This document shows positions 12,750-57,602 of a stretch of DNA of 64,000 nucleotides, piece after piece (positions within the stretch are counted from its first letter, which is position 1; every line of letters begins with the position of its first letter). The DNA comes from Candidatus Brocadia pituitae (GTDB taxonomy: Bacteria > Planctomycetota > Brocadiia > Brocadiales > Brocadiaceae). The position numbers were made by a program, and so were the translations under genes. The notes beneath the pieces are model-generated. The model was not told the DNA's origin, ran no database searches, and saw only the letters and a program-made list of their open reading frames with translations. The stretch lies in contig AP021856.1 in assembly GCA_017347445.1 (NCBI GenBank), forward strand, positions 1,868,613 to 1,932,612, written 5' to 3'.

Positions 12750-12750
12750 C

Positions 12751-39016: not shown

Positions 39017-40090
39017 TCACGTGTCAGCAGAATCCAGTTCCTGAAATACCACAGAAGGATGGTGATCATGAATTACGCCGGGACTCTTTATCCATGTTGA
39101 CCAACCGAGGAGTGCAGGAGCAGGCGCATCCTTACCTAAGATACATAATGAAACTTCCTCACGTTTAAGAACAAGAGAAATCTCGAACTCGTATTCTATA
39201 CCAACCATATATCTGATAAGGGAGAAACAAGGTTTAAGCATGTTGCCCGTGGGCAAGAAACGAAAAAATTCATCCCGACCCAATGGTCCCAGATGGACCC
39301 GAAATTTCGTTTGGTTTTCCCACACATAACTTCCACAAACCGTATTGACCCCAAGTTGTATGTTTGCCAGGCCAAGGTGTGTTTGATCTTCCGGGCTTAT
39401 CTGAACCATTCTATCAATAAACTGCTGAACACGTACCGATGTCCCGGCAAAATATTCCACGGTAGCCTCAATTGTAAAAGAGGAAGGGACCTGTCTCGAC
39501 AGAAGCCCGCTGTAAAAATACACCAGCGATTTCTCCGGTAATCCAATCGTTTCAACCAGGCCGGGTGTTCCCAGCCCGATCAAACTTAAAAAATGTGATG
39601 ATAGCCTGTCTTTATTTCCTGGCAAATAGGTCGCAGACAATCGATACTTTTTCCAAGCCAAATAAAAAAGAGAAATGAACCGATGGTGAAATATATTAAA
39701 GAATGCGGTAATAGCTGAATGCTTTTCCTTCTTTTTGTCCGTATCTTTTGCCTTCCGGTACATCTCGTCCATCTCCATGGCAAGTTCATTGTACCAGTAT
39801 GGCAAAACTCCGGAAGGGCCAATAAGCCCCATAAAGGCAACTTGCATGTCCACAGGTCTCTCGTTACATTCATGTTCTAACTGAGAGATATCGCTGGGGG
39901 GAAAGGCAAATCCCGGTTTAGATGAAAATCGTACCGCTTCTTTTGCCGGCTCCAGGGTTTGTCCAATTGGCTTTTTTTCAGGAAAAAGATTTTCCAGTAA
40001 ACTGACTGCCTTAAAAAAAGAAAACCGATAAAATTCTTTCAGAAGGCGGTCTTTTAAAGAAGTACCTGATTGCCACTTCTGGGCGCCCAT
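39017..40090 (-). CDS. tssG: T6SS baseplate protein TssG
   Basis: Baseplate wedge component of 357 residues. The ImpH/VasB-family signature is seen in FYRFSFFKAVSLLENLFPE near residue 21 and FSSKPGFAFPPSDI near 52, followed by MAFMGLIGPSGVLPYWY around 86-100 and the C-terminal LGPLGRDEFFRFLPTG region. The start overlaps the end of tssF by 37 bp, indicating coupled translation of the two wedge partners. Confidence 0.93.
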   Translation of the reverse strand: MGAQKWQSGTSLKDRLLKEFYRFSFFKAVSLLENLFPEKKPIGQTLEPAKEAVRFSSKPGFAFPPSDISQLEHECNERPVDMQVAFMGLIGPSGVLPYWYNELAMEMDEMYRKAKDTDKKKEKHSAITAFFNIFHHRFISLFYLAWKKYRLSATYLPGNKDRLSSHFLSLIGLGTPGLVETIGLPEKSLVYFYSGLLSRQVPSSFTIEATVEYFAGTSVRVQQFIDRMVQISPEDQTHLGLANIQLGVNTVCGSYVWENQTKFRVHLGPLGRDEFFRFLPTGNMLKPCFSLIRYMVGIEYEFEISLVLKREEVSLCILGKDAPAPALLGWSTWIKSPGVIHDHHPSVVFQELDSADT

Positions 40091-41847: not shown

Positions 41848-41852
41848 AACTT

Positions 41853-42329
41853 TTATGCTGTAACCGAGTAGCTTTGCTTGTTAACATCACAAATGGTATC
41901 AAAGGTAACGGGTTCTTTTATTGGTTCCACAACCATCAATGCGGAGATCCTGAACTTTAAGCTTTGTCTGTCTGGTGAATGCTCTTCAAAATGGATAGAA
42001 ACATTTTTTAATCTGGACTCAAACTGTGAAATCGTTTTCTCCAGTTCATATCGCAGTTGCTGTTTCAGGGACGGACTTTTAGGATTTTTAGAGGTAAAAT
42101 CGCGTAAACCATAGGTATAAACTGAATCAATAAGCTCCCGATATGATTGTGGAGGTTCGATAAGAATGCGCCTTGAGTTTAAGAGATTTTCCAAATCCCT
42201 CTTTACCGATGCTTTAATCTGACTAATACTGAGGGATCGGTTCTGGACAGACTCAGACGGGACCTCCGGTTCCCGATCAATGAGTCTGTCCAGGATAGAT
42301 GTTTGTAAACTCTGCTGTTCTTGTCTCAT
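41853..42329 (-). CDS. tssE: T6SS baseplate protein TssE (gp25-like)
   Basis: Baseplate component of 158 residues that starts sheath polymerisation. The gp25-like pattern is visible: LLNSRR near residue 50, LIDSVYTYGLRDFTS around 66-80, and a C-terminal FRISALMVVEP stretch. It has a short N-terminal extension with PEVPSESVQNRSLS. It lies 11 bp after hcp and 5 bp before tssF in the same operon. Confidence 0.9.
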   Translation of the reverse strand: MRQEQQSLQTSILDRLIDREPEVPSESVQNRSLSISQIKASVKRDLENLLNSRRILIEPPQSYRELIDSVYTYGLRDFTSKNPKSPSLKQQLRYELEKTISQFESRLKNVSIHFEEHSPDRQSLKFRISALMVVEPIKEPVTFDTICDVNKQSYSVTA

Positions 42330-42340
42330 TTCTAAAAAAG

Positions 42341-42838
42341 CTATACCTTCTTATTCTTCTCCAAATCCCAGCCGGCTGCGACCTGTCCTCCGCCAGAACC
42401 ATCTGCGCGTTTTTGCTGGGTATAAATCCACTCAATCTTGCCATAATTAAATGCCACCTCTTCAAGAGGTAAGGTTTCTGTCCCTCCTGCAGATCCGCCC
42501 GGACGGACAGAACTAATAATACAATTGCTTAATTTGTATTCCATGTATTTCACCTTATCTCCTCCTGCCCGGCATAGTTCAAGGATCACAGACTTAATAT
42601 GAGTTCCATCAGCGCAACTCACCGCTATCTTTGGCGATCCCTTATCAAGCGCCTTGACAATGGAAAAATCCTGAAAATCTGCCCGTTGCGATGTCGCCCC
42701 TCCGGCAGTACTTGCTGACCCGGATGCCGTCTGTGATATCCCGGTACTATAGGAAAGTATCTCTATCCAGTTTGCATGTTTATCATCAGTGCTTTCTCCA
42801 TCTATACCATCGATCTTTAAAAATGCATCAAAAGCCAT
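42341..42838 (-). CDS. hcp: T6SS tube protein Hcp (TssD)
   Basis: Forms the hexameric inner tube of the secretion system and is secreted. The 165-residue protein has the family start AFDAFLKIDGIDGES, the SYSTGISQ loop and DFSIVKALDKGSPKI, with EVAFNYGKIEWIYTQQKR near the C-terminus, typical of Hcp1-type proteins. Length is standard. A 240-bp gap upstream, before tssC, is A/T-rich and may hold a promoter, since hcp is usually needed in large amounts. Confidence 0.96.
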   Translation of the reverse strand: MAFDAFLKIDGIDGESTDDKHANWIEILSYSTGISQTASGSASTAGGATSQRADFQDFSIVKALDKGSPKIAVSCADGTHIKSVILELCRAGGDKVKYMEYKLSNCIISSVRPGGSAGGTETLPLEEVAFNYGKIEWIYTQQKRADGSGGGQVAAGWDLEKNKKV

Positions 42839-43077
42839 ACTCTTCTCCCTTCTTTTTTCTATAAAAGTTAATAAAGTAAGATTGCTAAACTTAAATTACG
42901 ATGTATTTAATTACCATATATTCCCCAGGACAGCATAACCTCAACCAAGTCCCCTCTATCAAGAGGAGAGTGCTTTACGTCGTTAACTCAGCCGAACGAT
43001 GAAATGGCCGTGTAATAACCTCGATGAAAATTGCCACGGACTACATAAACACGTAATGTTTATCGTCAGTAATTTTC

Positions 43078-44574
43078 CTATCCTTTTGCAGGCGGAGGTA
43101 ATTCCGCAACCAATCGTAAGGAAATTGTCAATTCATCCAGCTGGTAATGGGGCTTGAGAAAAGCCACAGCTTTATAAACGCCTGGCTTACCCGGCACTTC
43201 ACTCACATCAACCCTTGCCTCCCGTAAAGGAAATTTAGCCTTCAATTCCTGACCGGCATCATCATCCAGAAGGACGTAATTACTAATCCACCGGTTGAGA
43301 AAATCCTCTGCATTCTTGCGCGTCATGAAGCTGCCAATCTTATCCCTCATAATAGACTTGAGGTAGTGGGCAAACCTTGAAACGGCTAGCATATACTGTA
43401 GCTGGGAAGAGAGTCTTGCATTCGCATTTGCAGAATCCGTATCATAAACCTTTGGTTTGTTAGCTGTTTGTGTACTAAAAAAAGCCGCATAATCTGTTCC
43501 CTTGCAGTGTACCAGCGGAATGAAACCAAGATCGGCAAATTCCTTTTCACGCCTATCAGTAATAGCAATTTCTGTAGGGCACTTTAACGCAACCTCCCCT
43601 TCGTCAGTCTTAAATGTGTGGACCGGTAGTCCTTCTACAAGTCCTCCTCCCTCAACACCTCGAATGGCCGCTGTCCAGTGATACTTTGCAAATGCATCAG
43701 TAATGCGTGCTCCGAGCGCATATGCTGCATTAGACCAGAGATATTTACTATGGTCTGTACCCTCCACATCCTCCTCGTAATCAAAGGATTCAACAGGCAC
43801 ATTATCCTTGCCATAGGGCAGTCTCATAAGGATATGAGGCATTGTCAGCGCTACGTATCGGGAATCTTCAGAATTACGAAATGATTTCCATTTCGCATAC
43901 TCAACGCTCTGAAATATCTTCGCCAGGTCCCGTGGGCCGCCAAGTTCGGTGAAACTATCCCAATTAAAGAGCTTTGGTGACGCAGCAGAAATAAATGGTG
44001 CATGAGCCGCTGCCGCGACCTGAGATATTTTTTCAAGAAGCGACATATCTTGCGGATGATTACTAAACTCATAATCCCCTATCAAGGCACCATACGCCTC
44101 CCCGCCAAACATACCAAATTCATGTTCATACACCATCTTAAAGAGTGCCGATTGGTCAAATTCACTTGCCTTTTCAATGTCTTTGAGAAGCTCTTGTTTT
44201 GAAATATTCAATACCTTGATCTTCAGTTTTTCCCCTGTCTCGCTGTTTTGTACAAGGTAGTTCAATCCCCTCCAGGAGGCCTCTAGTTTCTGAAACTCAG
44301 GGAAATGCATAATTTCATTCAATTGTTTTGAAATGAGATCATCTATTGCACTGATCCTCGTATTGATCATAGCTTCTGTATTCTTTGAAACCACGATGGT
44401 TTTTTCCATGATCTGGTTGACAAACTCACCGATGACATCCTTTGCCCATGTCTTTTGACTTTCATCGCGAATCATACGGCCTTCTTCTATGATCTTTTCT
44501 AATAAACTCTTTTCCGCCGGAGCCGCTTCTGCCTGAGCAGCCTCCGTTTTTACCTGTTCTTCTTTTTCTGGCAT
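43078..44574 (-). CDS. tssC: T6SS sheath large subunit TssC
   Basis: Large contractile-sheath protein of 498 residues. Recognisable parts are IDDLISKQLNEIMHFPEFQKLE, SWRGLNYLV, PFISAASPKLF, MPHILMRLPYG and the C-terminal VRELPPPAKG-like end LVAELPPPAKG. An N-terminal Ala/Glu-rich lead (TEAAQAEAAPAEKS) precedes the sheath fold. It follows tssB by 15 bases, matching the universal tssB-tssC pairing. Confidence 0.96.
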   Translation of the reverse strand: MPEKEEQVKTEAAQAEAAPAEKSLLEKIIEEGRMIRDESQKTWAKDVIGEFVNQIMEKTIVVSKNTEAMINTRISAIDDLISKQLNEIMHFPEFQKLEASWRGLNYLVQNSETGEKLKIKVLNISKQELLKDIEKASEFDQSALFKMVYEHEFGMFGGEAYGALIGDYEFSNHPQDMSLLEKISQVAAAAHAPFISAASPKLFNWDSFTELGGPRDLAKIFQSVEYAKWKSFRNSEDSRYVALTMPHILMRLPYGKDNVPVESFDYEEDVEGTDHSKYLWSNAAYALGARITDAFAKYHWTAAIRGVEGGGLVEGLPVHTFKTDEGEVALKCPTEIAITDRREKEFADLGFIPLVHCKGTDYAAFFSTQTANKPKVYDTDSANANARLSSQLQYMLAVSRFAHYLKSIMRDKIGSFMTRKNAEDFLNRWISNYVLLDDDAGQELKAKFPLREARVDVSEVPGKPGVYKAVAFLKPHYQLDELTISLRLVAELPPPAKG

Positions 44575-44589
44575 ACTCCTTCCCTCCTT

Positions 44590-45117
44590 TTAATCTTTCT
44601 TTTGTTCTTCTGGTTTTTTTATACCGGACTCCTCCCCAAGTTTCTGCAGAGAATCGGTGCTTGTAATAACATTTTGAAGAAGTTCATCCAACTTATCATT
44701 ACCATCCAATTTACTCAGCAGGTCAGATAACTTGCGCCGCGCCTCCACCAGTTTCCGTAAGGGTTCTATCTGCACTGCAACGTTTTCCGGATGGAAATCG
44801 TCCAGTGATTCAAATTTCAGCTCAACCCCTACTTTTGTATCCTCCTGCGTGAGCTTATTGTCAACCTTAAATGCCAGCCTCGGTTTCATCCCAGCGAGTA
44901 CATTGTTGAAATTGTCCCTGTCTATTTCAAGGTATTTTCTCTCCTTTACCTTCGGAAGAGGTTCAGCTGGCTTTCCGGAAAAATCCCCTACGACACCGAC
45001 GACAAAAGGAATCTCCTTCATCTGAATAGCGCCACCAATCTCCACATCGTAAGTTATATGCACCCTTGGCGACCTCACCCTGTCAAGTTTGTGCTGTAAA
45101 CTTTCTGGCATAACCAT
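44590..45117 (-). CDS. tssB: T6SS sheath small subunit TssB
   Basis: Small contractile-sheath protein of 175 residues. The pattern RVHITYDVEIGGAIQMKE, LPFVVGVVGDFSG, RKYLEIDRDNFNNV and FESLDDFHPENVA is that of the ImpB/VipA family. A longer than usual C-terminal tail after LDELLQNVI is rich in Lys and Glu. The gene is the first after a 290-bp gap that holds a long hairpin. Confidence 0.96.
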   Translation of the reverse strand: MVMPESLQHKLDRVRSPRVHITYDVEIGGAIQMKEIPFVVGVVGDFSGKPAEPLPKVKERKYLEIDRDNFNNVLAGMKPRLAFKVDNKLTQEDTKVGVELKFESLDDFHPENVAVQIEPLRKLVEARRKLSDLLSKLDGNDKLDELLQNVITSTDSLQKLGEESGIKKPEEQKKD

Positions 45118-45287
45118 CCCTCCTTATAAAAAATTACTGAAAACGTTTCGATACGGTAACTGAGAAATATATTTCGATACTATAGTAGTCCTTGGGTGTA
45201 TTCCCAGTTACTTGCAAAAACCGGGTGAACGGCATGGCTGAGTACATCTTATAAAATTATAGCGGCAAGGCGTGCCTTGCCATCACA

Positions 45288-45364
45288 GTAGGGTGGGCAT
45301 CGCCCACCAAAAAACAGGTAATGTAAGCGAATGCGTTGTGTTTGGTGGGCGATGCCCACCCTAC
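45288..45364. repeat. Perfect 24-bp inverted repeat between tssA and tssB
   Basis: GTAGGGTGGGCATCGCCCAC with AAA (45288-45311) is repeated as exact inverse at 45341-45364, with a 29-base loop. Each arm is also partly self-complementary (GGGTGGGC with GCCCACC), so alternative cruciform folds exist. Elements with this sequence style are common dispersed repeats in several bacterial groups. It splits the secretion operon and could act as a processing or attenuation site. The rest of the 45118-45409 gap shows no gene. Confidence 0.85.
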
Positions 45365-45409
45365 CCGGTTAATCAATTTACAGAAATCGGGAATGCACCC
45401 GTAGTCCCT

Positions 45410-46792
45410 TCAGTAAGTAATTGCCTTGGTAATATCGGTAGTGCAAATCTTTTTAAACAGTTCTTTTGCCCTTTCTTTATCAGCTTCAGGAGGGGTTCCC
45501 GATATCAGGCATTGATAGAGAGCATCGTGTATCTCCGCTATCCACATGGGTGATTCCCAACGCTCTAAATGTAACTCATTTATCAATGCGTATAACTCCT
45601 CCATAATGGGTCTGGCCAAATCAGGTCTTTGGGCCTTCAGGCAGAGTTTGACCATAAGGAGTCGAAAGCGATTTTTTTCCCGCACCGAAGGCATGCTGGA
45701 TGAAACTCCGTAAATATGACTTAGTGCAGCCCGTATCCCCTCGTTCTTTAATTTTTTAAGAGCATCTTCCCATACGATCTTTTCCTTAGATTCAGAATCC
45801 GAAAATTGGTTTGCACTGCCTAAGCCATCAGACCCATGCCTGGTTAATGGAGAGCTTGTATCTTCATCTTCTTTTTTTCCGCCCTGCAATGAAGCATCCG
45901 TTTCCGCATTCTGTTCCGGGGGTGGAGCGCGCCTGTTTTTTTCTTTCAGTATCAATTCTGCCACCTTATCCTTTGAAACAAATTGTTCCACATCAGCAAG
46001 TGCCTTCCTGAATTCAGCCAATCTTGGGGCAGTAGACTTTGGTTTTTCGTCTTTTGGGGCGTGAGAAACAAATTTTTGATCAACGATTTTTTCAAATTCA
46101 TCAAAAGCCTCACGACACTGCCTTATCTTTTCTTCCAGTTCAAAATAATATGCTCCGGTTGAAATATCGATTGCAGCATCAAAATCCTCGGCAGTCAATT
46201 TTCCGTCAGCTACCATTTCATCCCGATCTTTCTTCTTTTTTTCATCTACATCCCCGTATTGATTACGGGTATTCTTTTCATAGCCAACCTTACGGGACTC
46301 TTTCCATTTCAGCCAGGAATAACCTGGCGATACCTTGCTGTCCGTGATGGGAATCTGCTTTATCATGGACGCTTTTCCTTCTGTTTCATTTGCATTAATA
46401 ACTTCCAGCACATTGACCCTGGACTCTAAATCTTCTCCTTCAATTTCGGGATAGATACTATCCCAATAATTCATTAATAGACCAGTGAGAATTTTAAAAC
46501 CTAACGCGAGTCCTTCAAAACCATCCGTTTTAGTTAATGCCTCCGTAAGCCAGACAGCTAATTGTAGATCTTTTGTCTTATGAGTAAGCGCGTCAATCGA
46601 TAATTCACTGACTTTATTCCAGTCTACCTTCTTGATTTCATGCCTCCAGTCGCCTTGGTTAAGTTCATCTTCCTCCCTTCGGGCTTCCTTCAGCTCATCA
46701 TAGACGCTGTCGTACCGGAGGTTTTCACCTGCTTTCTTTTCACCAGGAATTGGGGACAATAGGGCATCCAAATCAATCTTTATTTTCATCAT
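45410..46792 (-). CDS. tssA: T6SS protein TssA (ImpA family)
   Basis: The 460-residue protein coordinates tube-sheath assembly. It begins DLDALLSPIPGEKKAGENLRYD, the ImpA N-terminal signature, followed by the WLTEALTKTDGFEGLALGF helix region. The middle contains a charged low-complexity stretch (PPPEQNAETDASLQGG), and the C-terminus LVKLCLKAQRPDLARPIMEEL to LERWESPMWIAEIHDALY resembles the VasJ-type TssA end. Its start overlaps the stop of tagJ by four bases. Confidence 0.93.
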   Translation of the reverse strand: MMKIKIDLDALLSPIPGEKKAGENLRYDSVYDELKEARREEDELNQGDWRHEIKKVDWNKVSELSIDALTHKTKDLQLAVWLTEALTKTDGFEGLALGFKILTGLLMNYWDSIYPEIEGEDLESRVNVLEVINANETEGKASMIKQIPITDSKVSPGYSWLKWKESRKVGYEKNTRNQYGDVDEKKKKDRDEMVADGKLTAEDFDAAIDISTGAYYFELEEKIRQCREAFDEFEKIVDQKFVSHAPKDEKPKSTAPRLAEFRKALADVEQFVSKDKVAELILKEKNRRAPPPEQNAETDASLQGGKKEDEDTSSPLTRHGSDGLGSANQFSDSESKEKIVWEDALKKLKNEGIRAALSHIYGVSSSMPSVREKNRFRLLMVKLCLKAQRPDLARPIMEELYALINELHLERWESPMWIAEIHDALYQCLISGTPPEADKERAKELFKKICTTDITKAITY

Positions 46793-47598
46793 GGTTTTTC
46801 TGTTCTGTTAGAAGTTGAAAACGTAACCTCACGTAGTTCCAAAATGGGAATTTCATCTTCGCCTATCTGAAAAATGCGCTGCCCCGACCCCTTTGAAAAT
46901 GGTCCGCCAAGAGAAATCCAGTCGGTCATCCTCCCCATCTTTATCCGGTCGTCACGGTGAGACAACGAATCGTAATACAGCACCGGCAAGTAACAATGCA
47001 AACCAAGCCCTTCCTGTGTCGTAATACGGGCTGCTATCCAAAGATAATCAAAAAGCGTTTTGGGCGGAGAGATAATAATTTCTTTTAAAGAGTCAAAAGG
47101 CATCCATATATACTGTTCATGAACGATTGTTTCGAGAAAAATGGATACCAAGGTATCCGTATCTCGGATACCAGTAAAGCTCTTACCATTTGCAGTTCCC
47201 GATATAACGGGTCGCTGTTCATCTATTCGGTTAAACAGGTCAGAGGCCTCCTCTGTTTTTCTTTCAGTAAGCTTCTCCAGAGCAGAAAAGTACCTTTCGG
47301 CATAGGGCGGCGCTTTTGGCAAGAAAGCAGGACGACTGTTCCTTTTAAAGACTTCACTGCGAAGCCTTTCTGCCCGGATCAGATTTTTGTAAACCTGCAC
47401 CCCTGTCTCCCGGCTGGAATCCTGAGTTGCAATGATATCGAGGTGTTGTTCCGCCTTATCCCATTCACCACAGAAAGAAAGTACCTGAAACAGGAGTGTT
47501 CGCCGGCTCATATCTGCAGGCGATGACTTTACTTCTTCAATCAATTGTTCGCGTGCCTTTGAAAGATTGCTTGCTTTTACAAGATCTCTTGTGTCCAT
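46789..47598 (-). CDS. tagJ: T6SS accessory protein TagJ (ImpE/SciE)
   Basis: Accessory protein of about 270 residues that in other systems binds TssB and ClpV. The N-terminal TPR-like half reads AREQLIEEVKSSPADMSRR then LFQVLSFCGEWDKAEQHLD, the ImpE signature; the C-terminal half contains FDYLWIAARITTQEGLGL and VLYYDSLSHRDDRIKMGR, which is the ImpE domain core. I chose 47598 where AAGGAA lies ten bases upstream; frames upstream to 47658 would overlap tagF. Position after tagF and before tssA is consistent. Confidence 0.9.
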   Translation of the reverse strand: MDTRDLVKASNLSKAREQLIEEVKSSPADMSRRTLLFQVLSFCGEWDKAEQHLDIIATQDSSRETGVQVYKNLIRAERLRSEVFKRNSRPAFLPKAPPYAERYFSALEKLTERKTEEASDLFNRIDEQRPVISGTANGKSFTGIRDTDTLVSIFLETIVHEQYIWMPFDSLKEIIISPPKTLFDYLWIAARITTQEGLGLHCYLPVLYYDSLSHRDDRIKMGRMTDWISLGGPFSKGSGQRIFQIGEDEIPILELREVTFSTSNRTEKP

Positions 47599-47612
47599 AG
47601 TAATGTATTCCT

Positions 47613-48407
47613 TCATACAGAGACAATTCCACTTGATTCTGAAAAACTTACGGACCAAAACTTAGGAAAATCGTCCTGAGTTAAAGGACGTCTCAAAAGC
47701 GCCAGATACACCTGTTCCATGATCCCGCCCATAAAAATGGCATTTGGAGCAGCGTTAAGCTGTTCCTTTAAAAGAAAGTGCCAATAATGAATCAACATAG
47801 TCTGGCTATAAAACAGTTTGTTATTCAGGCAAAGAATAAATTCTGTCTTCTTTGACAACTCAGACGTTACACTTTCGATGCGCTTAGTATCTTGAGGAGA
47901 GGTGCGCATGTAATTATTAACAAGTTCTGTAGCGCTCTCTCTCTTTGCTTTAGAATCAGGCCAATCAGTAACAGGTGATCGAATATTCTGCACCTCGGCT
48001 TCCATTTTTTTTAAATCACTATGCGTTTGAGCCGACAGGTATTCGATCTGATTCCAGGTATTTTCGCAGGCAAACGGCAGGAATTCCCACTGTTCTTCCC
48101 AGTCCTTAAGGGAACCCGTTCCCATAATCAGCAGCGGGTAAGGCCTGCCGAGCTTATCGCTGCTATCTTTTACCAGACCGCACACGAGCATTCCTTTCCT
48201 GGACCCCTTCGCCCAGAAACGCCACGAACATGCTTTATGACTCGTTCTATTTTTTGAGGTTTGCATGGTATAACCCTTTTCAACCCAAACTGAAAAATAT
48301 TTCATCAATGGAAAGGCATTTCCACATTGAAAAAAATCTCTGGACACCGGATGTTTACCATAAGCTGCCCAGCGCCAATCTTGTTCAGATTTCAATGATC
48401 CCAACAT
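47613..48407 (-). CDS. tagF: T6SS regulator TagF-like protein
   Basis: Protein of 264 residues of the family first named BMA_A0400. The pattern YGKHPVSRDFFQCG near residue 14 and the PLLIMG stretch near 90 are typical of TagF N-terminal domains, which repress secretion post-translationally in Pseudomonas by binding FHA or kinase-related partners. The C-terminal PP2C-like domain seen in PppA-TagF fusions is absent. It overlaps tssM by 16 bp. Confidence 0.85.
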   Translation of the reverse strand: MLGSLKSEQDWRWAAYGKHPVSRDFFQCGNAFPLMKYFSVWVEKGYTMQTSKNRTSHKACSWRFWAKGSRKGMLVCGLVKDSSDKLGRPYPLLIMGTGSLKDWEEQWEFLPFACENTWNQIEYLSAQTHSDLKKMEAEVQNIRSPVTDWPDSKAKRESATELVNNYMRTSPQDTKRIESVTSELSKKTEFILCLNNKLFYSQTMLIHYWHFLLKEQLNAAPNAIFMGGIMEQVYLALLRRPLTQDDFPKFWSVSFSESSGIVSV

Positions 48408-51400
48408 GATGCAATATTCCTGGGCACGGATTCCTGAAGAGAAGCAAAATGTTCAAGAAGCGCCTGATGTCCTCTGAATTCATATTTTACCTTGATATAT
48501 TTGATTCCTAAACGTTCCATACATGTCCGCTGATCGTCATGAAAATCCCCTGCAGTAAAAGTATGCTGACCGCCCGGAAAATCACGCAAAAAATTTGGGA
48601 AGGCCTGTGCGCCTTCGTATTGCTTTATGAGGTTAATGTTTTCACCTACATCAATCTGTAAAAAAACATCACCACAGGTTTCTGGTATCCAACGAAAGGT
48701 TTCCTGAACAGGATAATTTTTGTTTGTTAAACTCTGCGTGCTGCCAGAACATCTCATCTCCAGCCGCGTGCTATGAGGCTTTTTTTTTGCGTCGGGATTA
48801 ACATCAAAAGGAATTGCCTTGATGGTAACATCGTATGCTGCCTGTATTGACTTGGCAGTTTTATATCCTTCGGTTGTAAACGTTAAAAAATGTTCCTCGA
48901 AGGGTATCATTTCTCCCATTACCTTCCTGGCATAATATCCTTTTTTCGGGTCACGGTCCAAAAAAGGAGAGGCATGCCCGCGAATAAATTTTGTGGCATA
49001 ACCTTCCTGCCCCAGCAGAACAAGGTTTACATTCTTTTGTTGAGATGTGCCTTCAAGTTCCATAAGCACTTCCTTTTCCCATAACTTCTGGAGATTACAA
49101 GCCGTTTCCCTGATAGTATATTTTTTCAGAAATTCCAGCGGGCCACTGATTACTAGCCAGAACATGTGCATGTCAGAACCGGCGCTGTCCATCGCAGCCT
49201 TGAGACTGGCGAGAGAATTATGTGCTGTCAAAAAAGCAGATTTCCCGGTGGCTGCGTCTTCAGAAAAGACTTGTGCTGCCATCTGAAATGCAACTTCACG
49301 GGAAGACGAAACCCGCGTTATTTCTGTTAAAGCCTTCAGATAATCATGCAACGCATTTGCAATATGCCTCTGTGTTTCCAGGTTTTTTGTGAGGCCTGTC
49401 TTTTGGCTTATTTTTCCAAGGAGTTGTTCTCCTTTTTTTACAACGGTTGAAAACATACCCGTTCCTGAACCCGCGGCAGGATTAAGCGTATGGAGCCTCG
49501 TATTATTTATTGAATAAACGCTCATAATCCATGGAGGCAAATCTTCCTCTTTGGTGACTGGTTCCAATTCTTCAGCCATTCTCTCCAATAATGAAAAATA
49601 GGGGTCTTGTTGTATTGCGATTTTCTTCGCTACTTCTTTCCATGCTTGTATGTCAGGTAATGCACGTCCGTCAACAGAGACAACTAATCTGTCGATCCCT
49701 TTAGAAAACCCATTGCCAAAATCATGCCACGAATCTTTGTAGGCCTTCTGATAGGATGTTTGAAATGCTGATTTCTGACTGGCAATAATAAGGGGGTCGC
49801 CAAGAGCAGTTTCTATCTCGGCAAGAAAGGCATCGATCTCTTTTTTCCCTTTCTTAGTAAACGCCCGCGGTATGACAGATTCCGGTGACGCTGACCCTGT
49901 GCCGCCCCAAAAAGAGCCTAATGAAACCTCCGGAATGGACAAAGATGGATCCGTATTAACCCAGGGAATAAGCCAATCAAAGTTTGTCTTCCTTATCGTG
50001 AGCATATGCTTTAACCACTTCTGAAGTTTATTCATCTCTTCATTGAGAGTATTTGCATTTTCATTCATATCCTGCCACACGATGTGGTAAAGATAGAGAT
50101 CAGAAAAATTCTCCCGGATATCCGGCGCCAATTCTTTATCGTCTGTCACAACAGAGGCAGTCCGAAATGGCTGAGGTCTGGCACGAAGACTCTCAAGCCC
50201 TTCACCTTCCAGACGAGCTCGCATCAGATTAATGCATCTTACCAGGCAGGCAATATCACCACCGTAATTCTCATAGCTACTGTTGCCGGATGAATGTATT
50301 ATCCTCGACTCCATCCTTTCATTAAACTGCTTGAAGAACTGATCCCGAAACTGATTACAGTATTTAATCTTGAGAAAACCCTCCACTTTTTTGCTTTCAT
50401 TCAGTCCAAATCGCGGAATCCACCAGGTGCGGTTTTGATCCTCTATGTTTAAGATACTATCCTTAAATTCAGCCATAACTCCTGCATCAGGAATCAATTC
50501 TCCGCTTAAAATGGTGGGTTTTAAAAATTTCATAGGAACGTCTCTTATAATCTTCAGGTTTTTAACAAAGGAAAAGCTCAGTACACCACAAAGAGCCAGA
50601 CACATGATAAACCATGAAGACAAACCAAGATTTCTTGTAAGTTTCCCCCACTCCACAGCCTGGGTGGTGGGGGCAAAAAGCCGCCTGTCTGTGGGGAGGA
50701 TTCTTGAAAAAAAATCATGAAGAAACAAACCCTTACTGGTACCCGGCAACACTTCTTTTTCTCCAATAAGCCCCAGGGCATTTAAAAAATGAGAAAAAGG
50801 ACGCCCCTCCTGACGTCCGCTGCTGAAAAAAAGACCCCTGAAAATTGCTGTCTCCTGATAGGGATTTTCCCGAAACGCTTCCTTCATAAACGCGCCAAGA
50901 CCTCTTTTCAGATTTTTGAACTCTTCGGGAAAAAGTAAGATGCCCGGATGTATCTCTTCGGATTCAGGTTGATGAAGGAAAAGCAGACGAAGGCTCCTTA
51001 ATCGTTCCCCTATGGTATGAATGGCTTCTTCCTGAAATGCAATTACATCGGTTGACAGATTCTTGTTGATGACGCCCATAGGCTGTTCGAGGCCCTTTTC
51101 CGGCAAATGCTCACAAAACTTTGTCATTCCCTGGATTAGATCACACTTGGTAACAAGCACGTAAACCGGGAACTTAAACCCCAACACCCGCATCAATTCG
51201 TCGATGCGGAGACGGATATTGCGACCGTCTTCTTCCAGTGTTTCAGATGAGGCTTCCAGGAGTTTATTTGCGGCAACAGAAACGATAACGCCATTGATAG
51301 GCTCTCTTTTCCGGTATTTTACTAAAAGATTGAGAAACTTATGCCATTCTTCCTTATCCCGTCCTTCATCGATCGGTATAGACCATCTCCCCGCGGTATC

Positions 51401-51919
51401 AAGAATAATCGCCTGCTCAAAAAACCACCAGTCGCAATTCCGTGTCCCTGATATACCAGGAGTCTTGTTTATTTCTGAGAACGATGAAGAAAGGTTGGCA
51501 CTGTTAATAGCAGTAGTTTTCCCTGTGCCACTTTCGCCGATAATTAAATACCACGGCAGCACATACAGGGGATTTCCAAACTTCCTCAGATGTGAGCGTT
51601 TTAATGCCTCGACACCGCTCTTCCATTTATCCTGAAGTTCTTTGAGTTCTTCTCTCTCTTTTCCCTTAAGGGCTGCAAGATGCCGCTCATTCTGATCGAT
51701 AACCTGCTGAACAAACTTTTTTTCCCGCTGTCTGAGCAATATTTTCCGGAGAAAATACCCACCTGCACAAAGTCCTGCGATACCCAGTAAAACAATGAAC
51801 CCTATCCACCATGGCCATGCCAGGCTAAGCGTAAGCCCGAAAGCAAAGAGGGAAATTAAAATAATTATTGCGATAATGAGGAAAATCTTGAGAAACTTTA
51901 CGATAAGATCTTTCATCAC
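48392..51919 (-). CDS. tssM: T6SS membrane-complex protein TssM (IcmF)
   Basis: Inner-membrane ATPase-like protein of 1175 residues linking cytoplasm to TssJ. Two N-terminal membrane segments (about residues 9-30 and 33-50) are followed by Walker A GESGTGKT near 128 and the IcmF-type GTRNCDWWF, with a third membrane segment near residue 440 (WFIMCLALCGVLSFSFV). The periplasmic part ends with the PFP GGQ-like DFPGGQHTFTAGDF typical of TssM. It has all expected parts and starts nine bases after tssL. Confidence 0.96.
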   Translation of the reverse strand: MMKDLIVKFLKIFLIIAIIILISLFAFGLTLSLAWPWWIGFIVLLGIAGLCAGGYFLRKILLRQREKKFVQQVIDQNERHLAALKGKEREELKELQDKWKSGVEALKRSHLRKFGNPLYVLPWYLIIGESGTGKTTAINSANLSSSFSEINKTPGISGTRNCDWWFFEQAIILDTAGRWSIPIDEGRDKEEWHKFLNLLVKYRKREPINGVIVSVAANKLLEASSETLEEDGRNIRLRIDELMRVLGFKFPVYVLVTKCDLIQGMTKFCEHLPEKGLEQPMGVINKNLSTDVIAFQEEAIHTIGERLRSLRLLFLHQPESEEIHPGILLFPEEFKNLKRGLGAFMKEAFRENPYQETAIFRGLFFSSGRQEGRPFSHFLNALGLIGEKEVLPGTSKGLFLHDFFSRILPTDRRLFAPTTQAVEWGKLTRNLGLSSWFIMCLALCGVLSFSFVKNLKIIRDVPMKFLKPTILSGELIPDAGVMAEFKDSILNIEDQNRTWWIPRFGLNESKKVEGFLKIKYCNQFRDQFFKQFNERMESRIIHSSGNSSYENYGGDIACLVRCINLMRARLEGEGLESLRARPQPFRTASVVTDDKELAPDIRENFSDLYLYHIVWQDMNENANTLNEEMNKLQKWLKHMLTIRKTNFDWLIPWVNTDPSLSIPEVSLGSFWGGTGSASPESVIPRAFTKKGKKEIDAFLAEIETALGDPLIIASQKSAFQTSYQKAYKDSWHDFGNGFSKGIDRLVVSVDGRALPDIQAWKEVAKKIAIQQDPYFSLLERMAEELEPVTKEEDLPPWIMSVYSINNTRLHTLNPAAGSGTGMFSTVVKKGEQLLGKISQKTGLTKNLETQRHIANALHDYLKALTEITRVSSSREVAFQMAAQVFSEDAATGKSAFLTAHNSLASLKAAMDSAGSDMHMFWLVISGPLEFLKKYTIRETACNLQKLWEKEVLMELEGTSQQKNVNLVLLGQEGYATKFIRGHASPFLDRDPKKGYYARKVMGEMIPFEEHFLTFTTEGYKTAKSIQAAYDVTIKAIPFDVNPDAKKKPHSTRLEMRCSGSTQSLTNKNYPVQETFRWIPETCGDVFLQIDVGENINLIKQYEGAQAFPNFLRDFPGGQHTFTAGDFHDDQRTCMERLGIKYIKVKYEFRGHQALLEHFASLQESVPRNIASCWDH

Positions 51920-51927
51920 GAGTGTAC

Positions 51928-52593
51928 CTATAAAATGTTATTTCCGATACTCCCCAGGACAAACCGGTAGATTAAGAATAACAATCCAAAAAAGAGCACC
52001 GATCCTGCACCGCTGGCAATAGCAACCACGGGGAACCGGAATTTCTTCCTTTTACGACCGTCCGGAACGACTTCATTTGGATAAGCTTCCGGAAACAATT
52101 CTGCTCTTTCAAGCGAAGGAAGCCCTACGGAACTTCCCATAAGGATTTTGAGATTGGATGTTTTCAGTTGCTCCAGAAGGTATTCGTCTCCTTTATGGCA
52201 GTAACGTCCGGTAAAACCCAGGGAGAGGCAGAAATAAAAAACCTCCCTCACCTGCCCCTGATGAAGTCCCAGGGCGTTTAATCTCTCAAAAAACTCTTCT
52301 CCGGCATCTGTAGTGCTGTAATAGACACGCTGAAGCGACTTTTTCTGCCACTGGTTTTTTTGAGCCCACGCAGAATTCAGAATAACTTCATCTGCCCAGG
52401 CACATACGGCAAAACGAGCGTGATCATAATCCTCGCGCGGAAAAAGGTCGTTCTTAAGGCACTCTTCACTTTTCGTGAGTAGTCTTACAATATCAGCCTT
52501 TACCTGTTCATATCTTGGTTGTTTTACGGTAACCGTTTTCTGAAAATACACCACATAGGCAATAAGCTCTATAAAATAATCCGTTAAATGCAT
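51928..52593 (-). CDS. tssL: T6SS membrane-complex protein TssL (DotU)
   Basis: Protein of 221 residues with a cytoplasmic helical domain and a C-terminal membrane anchor (SVLFFGLLFLIYRFVLG). The DotU pattern AVCAWADEVILNSAW and FFERLNAL, FYFCLSLGFTGRY is clear. No peptidoglycan-binding OmpA domain is fused, so this is the short form. I start at 52593, where TAAGGAA lies seven bases upstream, rather than the TTG two codons earlier. Confidence 0.95.
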   Translation of the reverse strand: MHLTDYFIELIAYVVYFQKTVTVKQPRYEQVKADIVRLLTKSEECLKNDLFPREDYDHARFAVCAWADEVILNSAWAQKNQWQKKSLQRVYYSTTDAGEEFFERLNALGLHQGQVREVFYFCLSLGFTGRYCHKGDEYLLEQLKTSNLKILMGSSVGLPSLERAELFPEAYPNEVVPDGRKRKKFRFPVVAIASGAGSVLFFGLLFLIYRFVLGSIGNNIL

Positions 52594-52701
52594 CTGCAAT
52601 TTCCTTACTGAGTAATTTTCAGATAATAAAATTCCTTGAGATATGTAAGGCTTTTCACGGTATCATTCCCTTACAACACGAGCAGAATTTTCTTTAAATT
52701 A

Positions 52702-54090
52702 TTATTTTCCCACAACCATCAGTTCGACCTCTAAATCTTCCGGTGCATTATCCCAGTACAGGGCGATATTGTTTCCCTTTGTTACCAACGCCCATTGGTC
52801 ACTATGGTGATCAATGGCAAAATACGTAGCATGCGCCCTTCTGGGTAATTGTGGCGGCGCCACGGAAAGATGTTCCAATTTTATGCCAGAAATCGCTTTT
52901 GCAATAAGAATTGGTAAACGTTCCCGTGATCCCAGCTTGGCAATCGTCGTCACATAATGAATCAGGGATTTTGGGTCCTCTTCGGTATTAAACACCAGAT
53001 AAAATCGGTTACGGCCTTCAAACATCCCTGGTTTCAAATCCGCGGTATAATAAGTGCCATCATAAACCATACGGATTACGTAATCCGGCCCGGCGGTAAT
53101 TTTATCTAAAAGTTGAATAATTAAGGACTGTGCAGCAGAAAAACATTCCCAGAGTTTCCAGTGATCATAACCGGGAAGCGCGCTGACTCCTCCTTCTGTC
53201 TCACCCAGCACGTTGACTCGTTCATCAAAAGAAGAGAGTTCGCCAATCACTTGTCTCAACGTTCCGTAAACACTCCAGGGATGTATCTGCTGTGTTTCCG
53301 TAATATGATAAAGAAGGGGGGCATAACGGTTCAGCGACCTCAGGGCCAGTAAATAGACCATATCCCTTGTTCCAAATTCAGCCGTCTGAATTCCTCTTTG
53401 CATTTTATAAGCCTCAAGCTGATGACAACGGGCGGTAATCTGATCTCTGGTCTCCTTGACAAGCTTCATAAGAGGCTCCGAACTGGTAATGGTGAGACAC
53501 GGTGGAATAAAATGCTGGGATAATACAACCTTTTCCCCCATCCTTTCTAACTGAGCAACGGGTAAAAGCACATAATCTCCCGCTTGTTCCCGCTCTGTTT
53601 CCCAGAATACCCTGAGCACGTAGTGAAGTCTTTTAACGTTGCCTTTCGGTCCGCAGACGTGTAAATCTGCAACTTCTTCTGCATCTCGTGATGTAACAAA
53701 ACGCGTTGTTGCCGCCGGAAAGGAATCCAAGGTCTCAAGGACAGTAACATTTTCACCGGTGTTATTCCATTTTTTGAGCCCAACATAGACTGGCAGCGGT
53801 TTACCGCCTTCAATCCAGGCCTCATCAAAGCGGCGGGCCTCTACCATTGCATTGTCAGGTAAAACTGCATAAGTTCCATCCTGAAACAAAAAGGTTCCAT
53901 TCACGAGATTAAATATTCCGTTTCCTAATGCCGCCTCCTGAATCTCCATTTTGCTTATCCCCCAGAAGTCTGGCTCAAGATATTGAAGAAAGGGCGCTAA
54001 AAGCGACCGAAAGGATAGATCCAGTAGCTGAAAATGCTGCGGCTGTAAAAGGAGACCCTGCTCCCAGAAGAGTGCTCGTTGAATATCCAT
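52702..54090 (-). CDS. tssK: T6SS baseplate-membrane linker TssK
   Basis: Trimeric connector between baseplate and membrane complex, 462 residues. It begins ALFWEQGLLLQPQHFQLLD, the family hallmark, with LEPDFWGISKMEIQ next and RERLPILIAKAISGIKLEHL near the C-terminal part. Its ATG overlaps the stop of tssJ by one base (TAATG), implying coupled translation. Confidence 0.96.
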   Translation of the reverse strand: MDIQRALFWEQGLLLQPQHFQLLDLSFRSLLAPFLQYLEPDFWGISKMEIQEAALGNGIFNLVNGTFLFQDGTYAVLPDNAMVEARRFDEAWIEGGKPLPVYVGLKKWNNTGENVTVLETLDSFPAATTRFVTSRDAEEVADLHVCGPKGNVKRLHYVLRVFWETEREQAGDYVLLPVAQLERMGEKVVLSQHFIPPCLTITSSEPLMKLVKETRDQITARCHQLEAYKMQRGIQTAEFGTRDMVYLLALRSLNRYAPLLYHITETQQIHPWSVYGTLRQVIGELSSFDERVNVLGETEGGVSALPGYDHWKLWECFSAAQSLIIQLLDKITAGPDYVIRMVYDGTYYTADLKPGMFEGRNRFYLVFNTEEDPKSLIHYVTTIAKLGSRERLPILIAKAISGIKLEHLSVAPPQLPRRAHATYFAIDHHSDQWALVTKGNNIALYWDNAPEDLEVELMVVGK

Positions 54091-54599
54091 TACTTCACCA
54101 TGAATCCTTTTATCTTTTCCCGTCCCAGATAAAGTTCGGCATCCAGTTTCTTTGGCTTTTTTCCAAAAAAGCTAACCGGTATTTGATGAGTACGCACCGC
54201 TTCATCCTTTTGTGCCATATAATATCCGGTTACCATACCAACATATTTCGTACCTTCTGCCCTGTCTAAGGTTTTGGTTGCCTCCTCTCCCGGATAAATT
54301 ACAAACGACTTGGAAGACGTCACGCTTGCATCGAAGTTGTTACACTGTAATAATTTTGACAGCCCCTCATTTTCATCTTTGAGTTCGTTAAATGCATTCA
54401 GACTTCGAAGTTGATAGATACCAAGCACCAGCGTATGCGGCTCTCCGTCATAATAATTCAAATCCTGGTCGCTTCTGATGTGTATCCGGATTGCACCTTC
54501 GCCATAAATATCATAATCCGGCTTTCGACCACTCCCGGCACATGAACAGAGCAATGTCATAAGCAAAAAAACGAACCATATCTTTACCGTATTTTTCAT
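54090..54599 (-). CDS. tssJ: T6SS outer-membrane lipoprotein TssJ
   Basis: Outer-membrane lipoprotein of 169 residues. The signal peptide ends in a lipobox (LLCSC, lipidated Cys near residue 20). The mature part has the transthyretin-like features of TssJ, including VLGIYQLRSLNAFNEL and FVIYPGEEATKTLDR. It overlaps the upstream TagH-like gene by four bases (ATGA) and the downstream tssK by one, so membrane and baseplate genes are tightly coupled. Confidence 0.95.
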   Translation of the reverse strand: MKNTVKIWFVFLLMTLLCSCAGSGRKPDYDIYGEGAIRIHIRSDQDLNYYDGEPHTLVLGIYQLRSLNAFNELKDENEGLSKLLQCNNFDASVTSSKSFVIYPGEEATKTLDRAEGTKYVGMVTGYYMAQKDEAVRTHQIPVSFFGKKPKKLDAELYLGREKIKGFMVK

Positions 54600-55354
54600 G
54601 CTATGCCTCTTTTTTCTATTTTATATAATTTTTGGCAAGTCTTCTCAAATTCTCTTAACAATTCTTCCGTGAAACGGCCGGAATCGAACCAGCCTTTACA
54701 CTCCTGAAATTTGTCCTTGTAAATATCGAAAAGCTCAGCCCTGCGCAGGGCGCCAAATTTTAAACCGCCTTTATTTGATTCAGAGATACGGGCAGGGTCT
54801 AATTCTTCCAGCATTTGTTTTACCCGGGTCTTGGCAGCCTCCTGAAAAGCCTTGTGTGATACCAAAAAGGCCGTTTTGATTTGATCCAGATAGCTTTGAA
54901 GAGATTCAGTCCCTTCTTCTTTCTCAAGATTTGAACCGATAACGTGTCGTATGGTTTCCAATTTAACATTTTCCCCAAAAAGGCATGTATGGATAACACG
55001 TATGATGGTATTTATGGTATCAAAAAGCGTGTGCAAGGATTTTGCTAATTTATCGGTTAGTTCTCCGGAAGAAAGCTTCGCCCCGGTGATTTCTTTTCCC
55101 AGCAACAGGGAAAAGAGCCGGGAAAACTCCCTTGACTCAAGGGAAAGGGCTTTTTCTTTTCCGGTGTTCCGGCTTTTAAATTGTTGACTCAGTTTCATCA
55201 GGAGTTCCATCCCTTCACTGGGTGATCTATCCCGTATTTGGCTTTCTACATAGTTTTCAATCAATCTTTCGGCGTTTGCATAATCAGCATGGTACAGCGT
55301 CCTGATTTCATCAGACATAGCCTGAATATTGTCGTGACTATTCTTTCCTGCCAT
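54596..55354 (-). CDS. tagH: TagH-like T6SS protein lacking an FHA domain
   Basis: Protein of 252 residues that resembles only the C-terminal half of TagH (T6SS-associated FHA protein): FLVSHKAFQEAAKTRVKQML, then LDPARISE, GALRRAELFDIYKDKFQE and FTEELLREFEKTCQKLYK. An FHA module (GR...S...N H...N G patterns) cannot be found at its N-terminus or elsewhere in the cluster. The gene starts inside the end of the upstream T-V-x-L repeat gene (17-bp overlap). In other systems TagH's FHA half reads kinase signals; here that half is missing. Confidence 0.75.
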   Translation of the reverse strand: MAGKNSHDNIQAMSDEIRTLYHADYANAERLIENYVESQIRDRSPSEGMELLMKLSQQFKSRNTGKEKALSLESREFSRLFSLLLGKEITGAKLSSGELTDKLAKSLHTLFDTINTIIRVIHTCLFGENVKLETIRHVIGSNLEKEEGTESLQSYLDQIKTAFLVSHKAFQEAAKTRVKQMLEELDPARISESNKGGLKFGALRRAELFDIYKDKFQECKGWFDSGRFTEELLREFEKTCQKLYKIEKRGIA

Positions 55355-57602
55355 TTTTGTATTTTACCTTTTCTGGTTTCAGGATAACGGTTTCTGCTAT
55401 GAAATCCGCTTCGTTAATCCTTTTTGCCTTGTTTTTATCAAGTTCTAAATGGTCGTTACCTTTTGTTATGACGTCTTTTTTGTTTTCGTGAGAATCACTT
55501 GCTATGACTTTTAGGGGTGTTTGTAATGGCCTTTTATCTGTTTCCCGGGCAGAGATGATAACCGTTTCTGGTACCGAATTCCCGGATTTTTCAATCTTTT
55601 CCGGGGGGAGTTCTTTCTGGAAACCTTTAAGAGAAAGAATAACGGTTTCGTCTAATTCTTCCCGATTTGCAGACTGCTTTGCGTCCTTTTTGCCTTTCCC
55701 GGATGGGAGGAGAACGGTTTCGGGGATGATATCCCGGGCTTCTTTATCCTTGTCCTTTTCAACGGCGGTTTCTTTTTTAAGATCTTTTAAAATAAGGGTA
55801 ACGGTTTTATCCGGATCTGACACTTCTTTTCCAAACTCTGCACTCCTTTTGCTGATAATTTTCATGAGAATTCCGTAAATCGTCTTATCTGCCACGGAGA
55901 ATCCCTGATCTTGTTCTATGGGTGCTTGTTCAGGAAAACTTCCAGAAGCAGAGATACTGCCGGTCTTGTCTGATACTTTCCTGTCGGGAAGTATTTCTGG
56001 TGATCTGCCTGCCGTTCCGGAATACCGCCCTTTTTGTTCGTCGAACAGGTTACGCCTGATCTCTTCTCTTACTTGCTCTAGTTCCTGGAAAAAGCCCTCG
56101 GACCATGCTGTAGTCTTATTGCGAAATGCCGTCATTAGCAAAGACCATCCCAGATGAAGCGTTCGCTCCCAGAGAGATTGCCAATCCTTTTTTACCTGTT
56201 TTCCTTCCGGAGCCCAGAAGATATTTTCAGGAAGGAATTGAGCGCACAATTCTTCTCCATATCGTTTTTCACACGATGCATCATTATCCGCAAGTCTTTG
56301 ATCCATCGCTGCACTTAAGGAGGGATAGATTTTTGAAATATCCTGCTTTTTGTTAACTAAAAAAGTATAAAACCAGAAAAGCCCTAAGGAAAAAAGGCCG
56401 TCAGACGAAGGAGACTTCGGAAGTGACGCTGTTTCTGTCAGCCTGCTGCTGATATCAAGATATGTAACCGTAAAATTCCAGAAAAAGGGCAGGAATCCGC
56501 CTTGATCGGCAAGCTTAATCCAAATACGGTCCAGGGAGAACCTGGTACCCACCGTCACAGCGAGGTTATTTCCTGACCGAAAGTTTTGCAGGAAGCCGGC
56601 CAAAAAAGAAAGCTTTAAATACATAATTTCCAGGAAACGTCTCTCGTCGTGATCAAAGAGAACTGGTGCCGTGTTAAAGCAATTTTGCCTGATTGCCTTT
56701 AGGCAATTTACCCTACCAAACTCCTGTTTTGCCCTTAACGGCGCTTCTATCTCCTCAAACGGTGCACCTGAGACAAGAGATAAAAAATCGATGGCATTCA
56801 ATGACATCGCCTGAAACAGTAACAGAGAAAATGGATAAAAGGAGAAGGGTATAATTCTTGACACGGCCTTGCCGTTTAATCCATAACATTCCTGATGATA
56901 CGGGCACTCCCCGCAGGGGAACTGGGTATCGGTATATGCCTTTTTGGGCAATTGGGCAAATTCCTTTATTAATGCCCACCGGTCTTTTACAGAAGGGGGG
57001 TCGAAACGGTCCGACTCATACCCATAAAAATCTTGTTTACCCGACGCGTAACAGGAAGGACAGAACAAGTAACGTTTCAGCGATTGTGTATATGACTGCA
57101 ATCCTGCGCTGATAAGAAGGTTATCATCTTCACATTGTTGAAGGGAGAGTCCGCATTTTGGACACGGTGGGTGGAAATAGGACTGCCGGGTATTGCAAAA
57201 AAAGAGGGGAGACATGAGCGCTAATTCCTCTTTTTCATTGATTTGGTTGGAAAGAATCATCAGCGGCTCGTTTTGATTCCCGTGTGTATAAAAAGAAAAT
57301 GCCTTCTGCCATGAGCCTTCAACGTCTTTGTTATTAACGGGCCGTAAGTCATCCTTTGTTATGAGATACTGATCTCTCTGCACGAAAAGAAATACCTTCC
57401 GTATATCACTTTCTGCATCCGTGACAAATTGCGCTTCGATGAGACGTGCAAGGGGATCCGATTCAGAGACAATCAAAAAAGGAAAAGAGGCCTTACCCAA
57501 TACGGCGGTATCCTGAGATATAAGAGATGGTCGCAAAGAGATGCCACCTCCGGGGTGAAGCAAATAGGGTAGTAAAGAATGTTTCCCGTCATGTTCCTTC
57601 AT
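55338..57602 (-). CDS. First gene of the T6SS cluster: large protein with cysteine clusters and a T-V-x-L repeat tail
   Basis: A 754-residue protein that I cannot assign to a family. The first 250 residues contain CPKCGLSLQQC, FCPSC and CGECPYHQEC, three cysteine clusters resembling zinc knuckles. The middle is helical. The last 160 residues are charged, apparently disordered, and carry five copies of a short motif, [D/P/A]-[K/E]-T-V-x-[L/I]: DKTVTL, PETVLL, DETVIL, PETVII and AETVIL, with the Thr at about residues 600, 629, 653, 680 and 738. Such spaced Thr motifs in disordered acidic surroundings look like sites for phosphorylation and FHA binding. It begins the operon and overlaps the TagH-like gene. 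Confidence 0.65.
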   Translation of the reverse strand: MKEHDGKHSLLPYLLHPGGGISLRPSLISQDTAVLGKASFPFLIVSESDPLARLIEAQFVTDAESDIRKVFLFVQRDQYLITKDDLRPVNNKDVEGSWQKAFSFYTHGNQNEPLMILSNQINEKEELALMSPLFFCNTRQSYFHPPCPKCGLSLQQCEDDNLLISAGLQSYTQSLKRYLFCPSCYASGKQDFYGYESDRFDPPSVKDRWALIKEFAQLPKKAYTDTQFPCGECPYHQECYGLNGKAVSRIIPFSFYPFSLLLFQAMSLNAIDFLSLVSGAPFEEIEAPLRAKQEFGRVNCLKAIRQNCFNTAPVLFDHDERRFLEIMYLKLSFLAGFLQNFRSGNNLAVTVGTRFSLDRIWIKLADQGGFLPFFWNFTVTYLDISSRLTETASLPKSPSSDGLFSLGLFWFYTFLVNKKQDISKIYPSLSAAMDQRLADNDASCEKRYGEELCAQFLPENIFWAPEGKQVKKDWQSLWERTLHLGWSLLMTAFRNKTTAWSEGFFQELEQVREEIRRNLFDEQKGRYSGTAGRSPEILPDRKVSDKTGSISASGSFPEQAPIEQDQGFSVADKTIYGILMKIISKRSAEFGKEVSDPDKTVTLILKDLKKETAVEKDKDKEARDIIPETVLLPSGKGKKDAKQSANREELDETVILSLKGFQKELPPEKIEKSGNSVPETVIISARETDKRPLQTPLKVIASDSHENKKDVITKGNDHLELDKNKAKRINEADFIAETVILKPEKVKYKNGRKE

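Follow-up and report, generated by a model that had tools for sequence, protein, structure and literature searches.

A kinase-derived protein with a putative multisite phosphothreonine-docking tail at the head of a type VI secretion operon of Candidatus Brocadia pituitae

Introduction

The window analysed here, a stretch of 64,000 nucleotides from Candidatus Brocadia pituitae (assembly GCA_017347445.1, contig AP021856.1, positions 1,868,613 to 1,932,612), contains a type VI secretion system (T6SS) operon headed by a minus-strand gene (55338–57602), the 754-residue product of which is called P1 below. This protein is likely to be a kinase-derived T6SS scaffold, with a multisite tail for phosphothreonine (pThr) docking that would be phosphorylated by a separate kinase, read in trans by an FHA protein and reset by a PP2C phosphatase. 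The core of P1 is a dead kinase fold, its tail is a predicted disordered array of conserved motifs built around a nearly constant Thr, the next gene (P2) encodes a T6SS FHA protein devoid of its FHA domain, and the motif tail co-occurs with, and often adjoins, a gene for a tandem-FHA protein. Control of the T6SS by Thr phosphorylation has been described chiefly in Proteobacteria, where it relies on a single phosphosite or a few.

The Thr Motifs of the P1 Tail

The open reading frame (ORF) of P1 is genuine, with an ATG start, and opens a co-directional T6SS operon running from 57602 to 39017. The original prediction, made from the letters of this DNA alone, had placed the gene correctly at the head of the operon and at the right coordinates, without stating its strand. 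It had also described five T-V-x-L motifs in a disordered tail, irregularly spaced and each with an acidic or proline residue before the Thr. All five sequences are exactly as claimed: DKTVTL (T600, residues 598–603, 55794–55811), PETVLL (T629, 627–632, 55707–55724), DETVIL (T653, 651–656, 55635–55652), PETVII (T680, 678–683, 55554–55571) and AETVIL (T738, 736–741, 55380–55397), all on the minus strand. Disorder is borne out as a prediction, since AlphaFold2 gives pLDDT values <40 for residues 590–754. The other two details had to be amended. The residue at −1 is Glu, or Lys once, and it is at −2 that Pro, Asp and Ala sit. The spacing is not very irregular, with 29, 24, 27 and 58 residues between successive Thr; the family median is 29, and a second cluster near 58–60 looks as though one copy were missing. 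Within residues 590–754, TVx[LIV] occurs five times, against a mean of 0.15 and a maximum of 4 in 20,000 shuffles, and a count over the whole protein finds no copy in the other 589 residues. Chance was rejected as an explanation of the motif on this shuffle test and on its conservation in homologues.

These homologues were retrieved from genome contigs by using an alignment of the Cys region of P1 as a query. Four of the 31 named loci found are planctomycete or unclassified, and the others are labelled Desulfobacterota/Deltaproteobacteria, Nitrospirota, Geobacter and, in one case, Deferribacteres, the latter being a metagenome-assembled genome (MAG). A homologue from the same genus (genome G003) is full-length, 59% identical to P1 and has kept all five sites; a 30-member alignment also includes P1. 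The tails of P1 and 26 homologues hold 100 strict copies, mostly 3–6 each, and a looser pattern gives 3–7 copies in 26 of these 27 members. The resulting consensus is [LIV]-x-E-T-V-I-[LI]-S-P, that is [LIV] at −3, Glu at −1 (79 of 100 copies), Thr at 0, Val/Ile at +1, Ile/Val at +2, Leu/Ile at +3, Ser at +4 and Pro at +5. The +3 residue is Leu in 60 copies, Ile in 29, Val in 5, Met in 4 and Phe in 2; since a hydrophobic residue was required there by the search pattern, only the preference for Leu/Ile is a result.

A check proposed beforehand, namely whether the motifs are conserved while the linkers vary, gave a clear answer: in seven homologue pairs, motif residues are 84% identical, compared with 49% for the linkers (Fisher p=5e-17, to be taken as a strong trend because alignment columns are not independent). 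When the flanks are fixed, position 0 is occupied by Thr in 73 of 74 instances, by Ala once and by Ser never, although Ser is the more frequent residue in the tails. Such a near-invariant Thr is as expected for a pThr-specific FHA ligand. No other ORF of the scanned T6SS loci has two or more copies, and the other T6SS-locus genes were rejected as motif carriers on that basis. In four homologues (L100, L102, L105 and L106), the kinase C-lobe is mostly gone but the motifs are kept. The segment preceding the tail (residues 570–591, 55830–55895, minus strand) is a conserved helix of consensus AIxxILxxIxxKW.

The comparison with known FHA ligands was made with those established by isothermal titration calorimetry or crystal structure. 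The T6SS Fha protein of Agrobacterium binds the TssL sequence DLP-pT-VVEI and not the unphosphorylated peptide (PMC3953482). For Bdellovibrio DgcB, a crystal structure shows the FHA domain with a peptide that includes LEK-pT-SIVAS; its Val at +3 lies in a pocket, and this position was important (PMC6733907). The family sites LDKTVILSP and LEKTVVIST (from L100/L102) are comparable to these ligands. More generally, the motif has two sequence features expected of an FHA ligand, Thr rather than Ser at position 0 and a hydrophobic +3, and its acidic −1 and [IL] +3 agree with the proven cases. FHA-mediated pThr recognition, which had been put forward as the obvious candidate, thus gains support from the conserved motifs, the near-invariant Thr and the FHA gene co-occurrence detailed below.

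A Dead Kinase Core with a Cysteine-Rich Insert

The core of P1 (residues 8–525, 56028–57581, minus strand) is a catalytically dead protein-kinase fold. Its AlphaFold2 model has pLDDT values mostly between 70 and 95, and residues 8–512 superimpose on IRAK4 over 244 residues (VIA-align Z 14.8, rmsd 3.4) and on the IRAK3 pseudokinase with a Z of 14.5. The fold assignment comes from this VIA-align re-examination, Foldseek with the whole P1 model having yielded no significant match (E never <0.14). Pfam gives no match for P1 or its sister homologue, and a phmmer search of the PDB with the homologue of genome G143 returned marginal kinase matches only. Membership of the kinase superfamily also agrees with the sequence relation of P1 to L109 (G143) and L110 (G167), two distant homologues from planctomycetes that have kept AIK/ALK and HLDLKPEN. 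In P1, the VAIK Lys is replaced by Phe, and both the HRD Asp and the Asn by Arg. Among the other 27 homologues, L109 and L110 excluded, the VAIK Lys is Leu in 25 and the HRD Asp is present in none.

It could be argued that P1 is an active PpkA-like kinase autophosphorylating its own tail, given its fold, the catalytic motifs kept in the two distant homologues and the frequent autophosphorylation of tails by kinases. This is very improbable in view of the family-wide loss of catalytic residues, on which this candidate was rejected, and of the several homologues lacking most of the C-lobe or, in genome G542, the whole core. L109 and L110 share the Cys insert and the kinase core with P1; they differ from it by their kept catalytic motifs and the absence of a TVxL tail, and no T6SS gene was found near the G143 copy.

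The N-terminal cysteine clusters had previously been left unexplained. They belong to an insert within the kinase fold (residues 136–239, 56886–57197, minus strand), and its nine cysteines (C136, C147, C150, C157, C181, C184, C230, C233 and C239) are invariant in 30/30 homologues, which points to a metal site. This insert is thus probably a metal-binding, zinc ribbon-like module. In the draft genome G144, the P1 homologue (L026, near 1432) is broken immediately ahead of the HLALD loop by a single in-frame TAG, either a sequencing error or a true split.

P2, a T6SS FHA Protein Devoid of Its FHA Domain

The second gene of the operon (54596–55354, minus strand) encodes P2, which corresponds to the C-terminal domain of TagH/Fha. 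Its match to PF20232 (T6SS_FHA_C; E=1e-4) reaches 22.6 bits, just below the cut-off of 23.7, and 24 of 27 P2 family members match at E<=0.01, the best at 4.6e-24. No FHA domain is found in P2 of the window or in any other member, except L108 (genome G253), where the gene after P1 encodes an FHA domain followed by the TagH C-terminal domain. The P1 proteins of the planctomycete relatives G253 and G194 have no motif tail. Since an FHA domain in cis goes with the lack of a motif tail in these genomes, the simplest explanation for the arrangement of the window is a presumed loss of the cis FHA domain, replaced by docking motifs and a separate FHA protein acting in trans. With only the C-terminal domain retained in P2, the FHA reader would act in trans. 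In L073 (G194; 10910–15304, minus strand), P1 is itself part of a fusion: its kinase-like domain, with a degraded HRD loop, is found in one protein with an FHA domain and a TagH C-terminal domain.

Candidate Partners Encoded in Trans

Besides FHA proteins, the same genome encodes two Hanks kinases, both full-length. An island of the same chromosome, at 2.437–2.453 Mb, contains the genes for a 557-aa tandem-FHA/TPR protein, a 682-aa kinase (2.448 Mb), a PP2C phosphatase and a 243-aa tandem-FHA protein called P0005 (2.452 Mb). In the sister genome G003, the kinase, PP2C and both tandem-FHA genes lie directly downstream of the T6SS operon. The original prediction had objected to FHA recognition that no FHA, kinase or phosphatase gene is in the cluster. 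This is true locally, but all three are present elsewhere in the genome and P2 is itself the C-terminal domain of an FHA protein; the objection falls away with this module on the same chromosome, and a check of the genome for FHA proteins and a Thr kinase finds both. It had overlooked that the core is a dead kinase, that P2 has no FHA domain and that the kinase/phosphatase/FHA island lies elsewhere.

The distribution of these genes links the FHA reader to the T6SS. Among 98 anammox relatives, a P0005 orthologue is found only in the two P1-bearing genomes, the matches in the others (E 1e-13 or worse) being different proteins, and 23 of 27 other P1 genomes have a tandem-FHA orthologue. In a set of 117 relatives of Geobacter sp. 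OR-1, TssK is present in 38, P1 in 6 and the P0005 orthologue in 7, and all six P1 genes adjoin the tandem-FHA gene. The seventh genome, G542, has between its tandem-FHA gene and P2 a 143-aa ORF without kinase core, the product of which contains LTETVILTP, VPETVIITP and LDETIILPP as well as the conserved preceding helix. A motif tail thus accompanies the FHA gene in 7/7 cases vs 0/110 (p=2e-11, uncorrected for phylogeny). Seven P1-less T6SSs of this set, examined upstream of TssJ, have no P1, P2 or FHA gene there. To this co-occurrence and adjacency is added the G003 synteny.

Within the tandem-FHA protein, FHA1 has kept its Gly-Arg and Ser-Arg-x-His in 32/32 sequences, and the phosphate-binding Arg of FHA2 is degenerate in most. 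Genes of the same types also lie beside P1 in relatives: a Ser/Thr kinase in L082, L087, L089, L092, L099 and L101 (of CHASE2 type in three), a tandem-FHA gene in L089, L095 and L098, and PP2C in L089 and L105. The CHASE2-sensor kinases of L082, L087 and L092 lie upstream of P1, within about 40–800 bases, which suggests an extracellular signal for this T6SS.

Two other observations concern the island (locus L020). The 557-aa tandem-FHA/TPR protein (1257–2930) has one conserved motif-like site, EE[RK]TV[VI]VSTP, between its FHA domains, which reads FEERTVVVSTP or FEEKTVIVSTP in the two genomes. A 656-aa protein (10618–12588, about 2.4466–2.4486 Mb), encoded between the FHA and kinase genes and kept in G003, has Sel1-like and caspase-like (peptidase C14) sequence, as named by reading only.

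Proposed Mechanism and Alternatives

From these elements, we infer the following sequence of events. P1 would combine the dead kinase domain and the Cys-rich, probably zinc-binding insert with a disordered pThr-docking array, [LIV]-x-E-pT-V-I-[LI]-S-P once phosphorylated. The tail would be phosphorylated by a separate Ser/Thr kinase; in the present genome the likeliest candidate is the 682-aa kinase (2.448 Mb), and in some relatives it would be the CHASE2-sensor or other kinase beside P1. FHA1 of the 243-aa tandem-FHA protein (2.452 Mb) would bind the pThr sites directly, and the PP2C phosphatase would reset the tail. P1 and P2 may position the complex at the T6SS and so influence its assembly, multiple docking sites permitting a graded or clustered recruitment at the baseplate/membrane complex.

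The tail might instead be a multivalent motif that is never phosphorylated, its hydrophobic TVIL strand pairing with P2 or another T6SS protein, at a beta-sheet or in a groove, and the FHA gene being linked for some other reason. Positions +1 to +3 are indeed strongly hydrophobic, the gene after the P1 family member is P2 in almost every Desulfobacterota/Nitrospirota locus examined, and the helix ahead of the tail is conserved too. Strand addition would however tolerate Ser, Val or Ile, none of which ever takes the place of the Thr; the residues at −1 and +3 fit proven FHA ligands, and the tail-only protein of G542 directly adjoins the FHA gene. Such a motif is therefore unlikely. PpkA–Fha condensates recruit T6SS parts in Acidovorax citrulli (PMC12607579), and with this precedent the phosphorylated tail could chiefly drive condensate formation rather than stoichiometric docking. 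Condensates are typically built in this way, from a multivalent disordered tail and a partner such as a tandem-FHA protein, but the degenerate FHA2 means that each FHA protein may be monovalent, and a dominant role of this kind looks quite improbable.

Several points weigh against the pThr-docking scaffold. Phosphorylation and binding are predictions from sequence, and a generic hydrophobic strand could, though less probably, serve another partner. Homologue L101 has almost no motif though its genome has a tandem-FHA gene (the weakest match, E=7e-25), and 4 of 27 P1 genomes have no tandem-FHA match, most of these being MAGs and perhaps incomplete. The FHA/kinase/phosphatase island lies 0.5 Mb from the T6SS in the genome of the window. 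The kinase is not orthologous throughout, being of CHASE2 or another type beside P1 in relatives and of DUF4384 type here, which makes the responsible kinase uncertain.

The T6SS Operon and Its Surroundings

The operon order is P1, P2, TssJ, TssK, TssL, TssM, TagF, ImpE, TssA, TssB, TssC, Hcp, TssE, TssF and TssG, all on the minus strand. P2 is followed by the TssJ lipoprotein (54090–54599, PF12790), TssK (52702–54090, PF05936), TssL (51928–52599, PF09850), TssM (48392–51919, PF14331) and TagF (47613–48407, PF09867). The remaining genes occupy 39017–47658; ImpE, TssA and TssB were assigned by domain match, and TssC, Hcp, TssE, TssF and TssG owe their names to a reading of the sequence and to the gene order shared with G003. 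Beyond the operon, a 517-aa protein (33622–35175, minus strand), possibly a TssB–TssC-like fusion, is similar to TssC but begins with sequence like that of TssB; it adjoins normal TssB and TssC and is kept in G003. A 182-aa gene after ClpV (35586–36134, minus strand) is also kept there with synteny.

P1 is present in 2 of 11 genomes of the genus, and this T6SS is probably confined likewise. The nearest other relatives of P1 are in Desulfobacterota and Nitrospirota, which, together with this patchy presence, suggests horizontal acquisition of P1 and of the T6SS (39017–57602 and its G003 counterpart).

Significance and Comparison with Known Systems

On balance, we favour the view that these loci represent an undescribed class of T6SS switch, found in Desulfobacterota, Nitrospirota, Geobacterales and anammox-type planctomycetes, in which a kinase has degenerated into a pseudokinase scaffold, its tail having turned into a multisite platform for pThr docking, and the FHA domain of the operon has moved to a separate tandem-FHA adaptor, the tail-only protein of G542 being its minimal form. 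No description of a T6SS pseudokinase scaffold, or of ETVIL with FHA, was found in the open-access literature searched. The logic of Thr phosphorylation control appears rewired here, with a multivalent scaffold and an FHA reader in trans kept across several phyla, and the tail alone in one lineage. A natural deletion series is available, from homologues with the full core through those without the C-lobe to a tail on its own, and the short consensus peptide lends itself to a direct test with a named FHA protein. The system is a likely T6SS trigger for anammox-type and for sulfate- and iron-reducing bacteria, for which none was described in the papers found.

With the PpkA/PppA/Fha1–TagH pathway of the Pseudomonas H1-T6SS and the PpkA–TssL–Fha pathway of Agrobacterium, the present system shares a T6SS-linked FHA reader, a candidate kinase and PP2C phosphatase, an FHA_C-domain protein in the operon, and a putative pThr in a TV-hydrophobic context, as in TssL DLPpTVVEI. 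In contrast, the putative ligand is here the repeated tail of a dead kinase and not TssL or Fha itself, the FHA_C protein has no FHA domain, this domain being supplied by a separate tandem-FHA protein, and the kinase and phosphatase can be unlinked. P1 is not an active PpkA, since its catalytic residues are lost, nor does P2 amount to a complete TagH/Fha. Proteins of the DgcB/GarA/OdhI type offer another parallel, in which FHA reads a short disordered tail at a site resembling L-x-[EK]-pT-x-I-[VIL] (in DgcB). Theirs is however a single site in the tail of the FHA protein itself, whereas the P1 family displays 3–7 sites on another protein. IRAK3-type pseudokinases similarly have a kinase fold without catalytic residues and presumably act as scaffolds; P1 differs from them in being bacterial and T6SS-linked, and in its nine-cysteine insert and putative docking tail.

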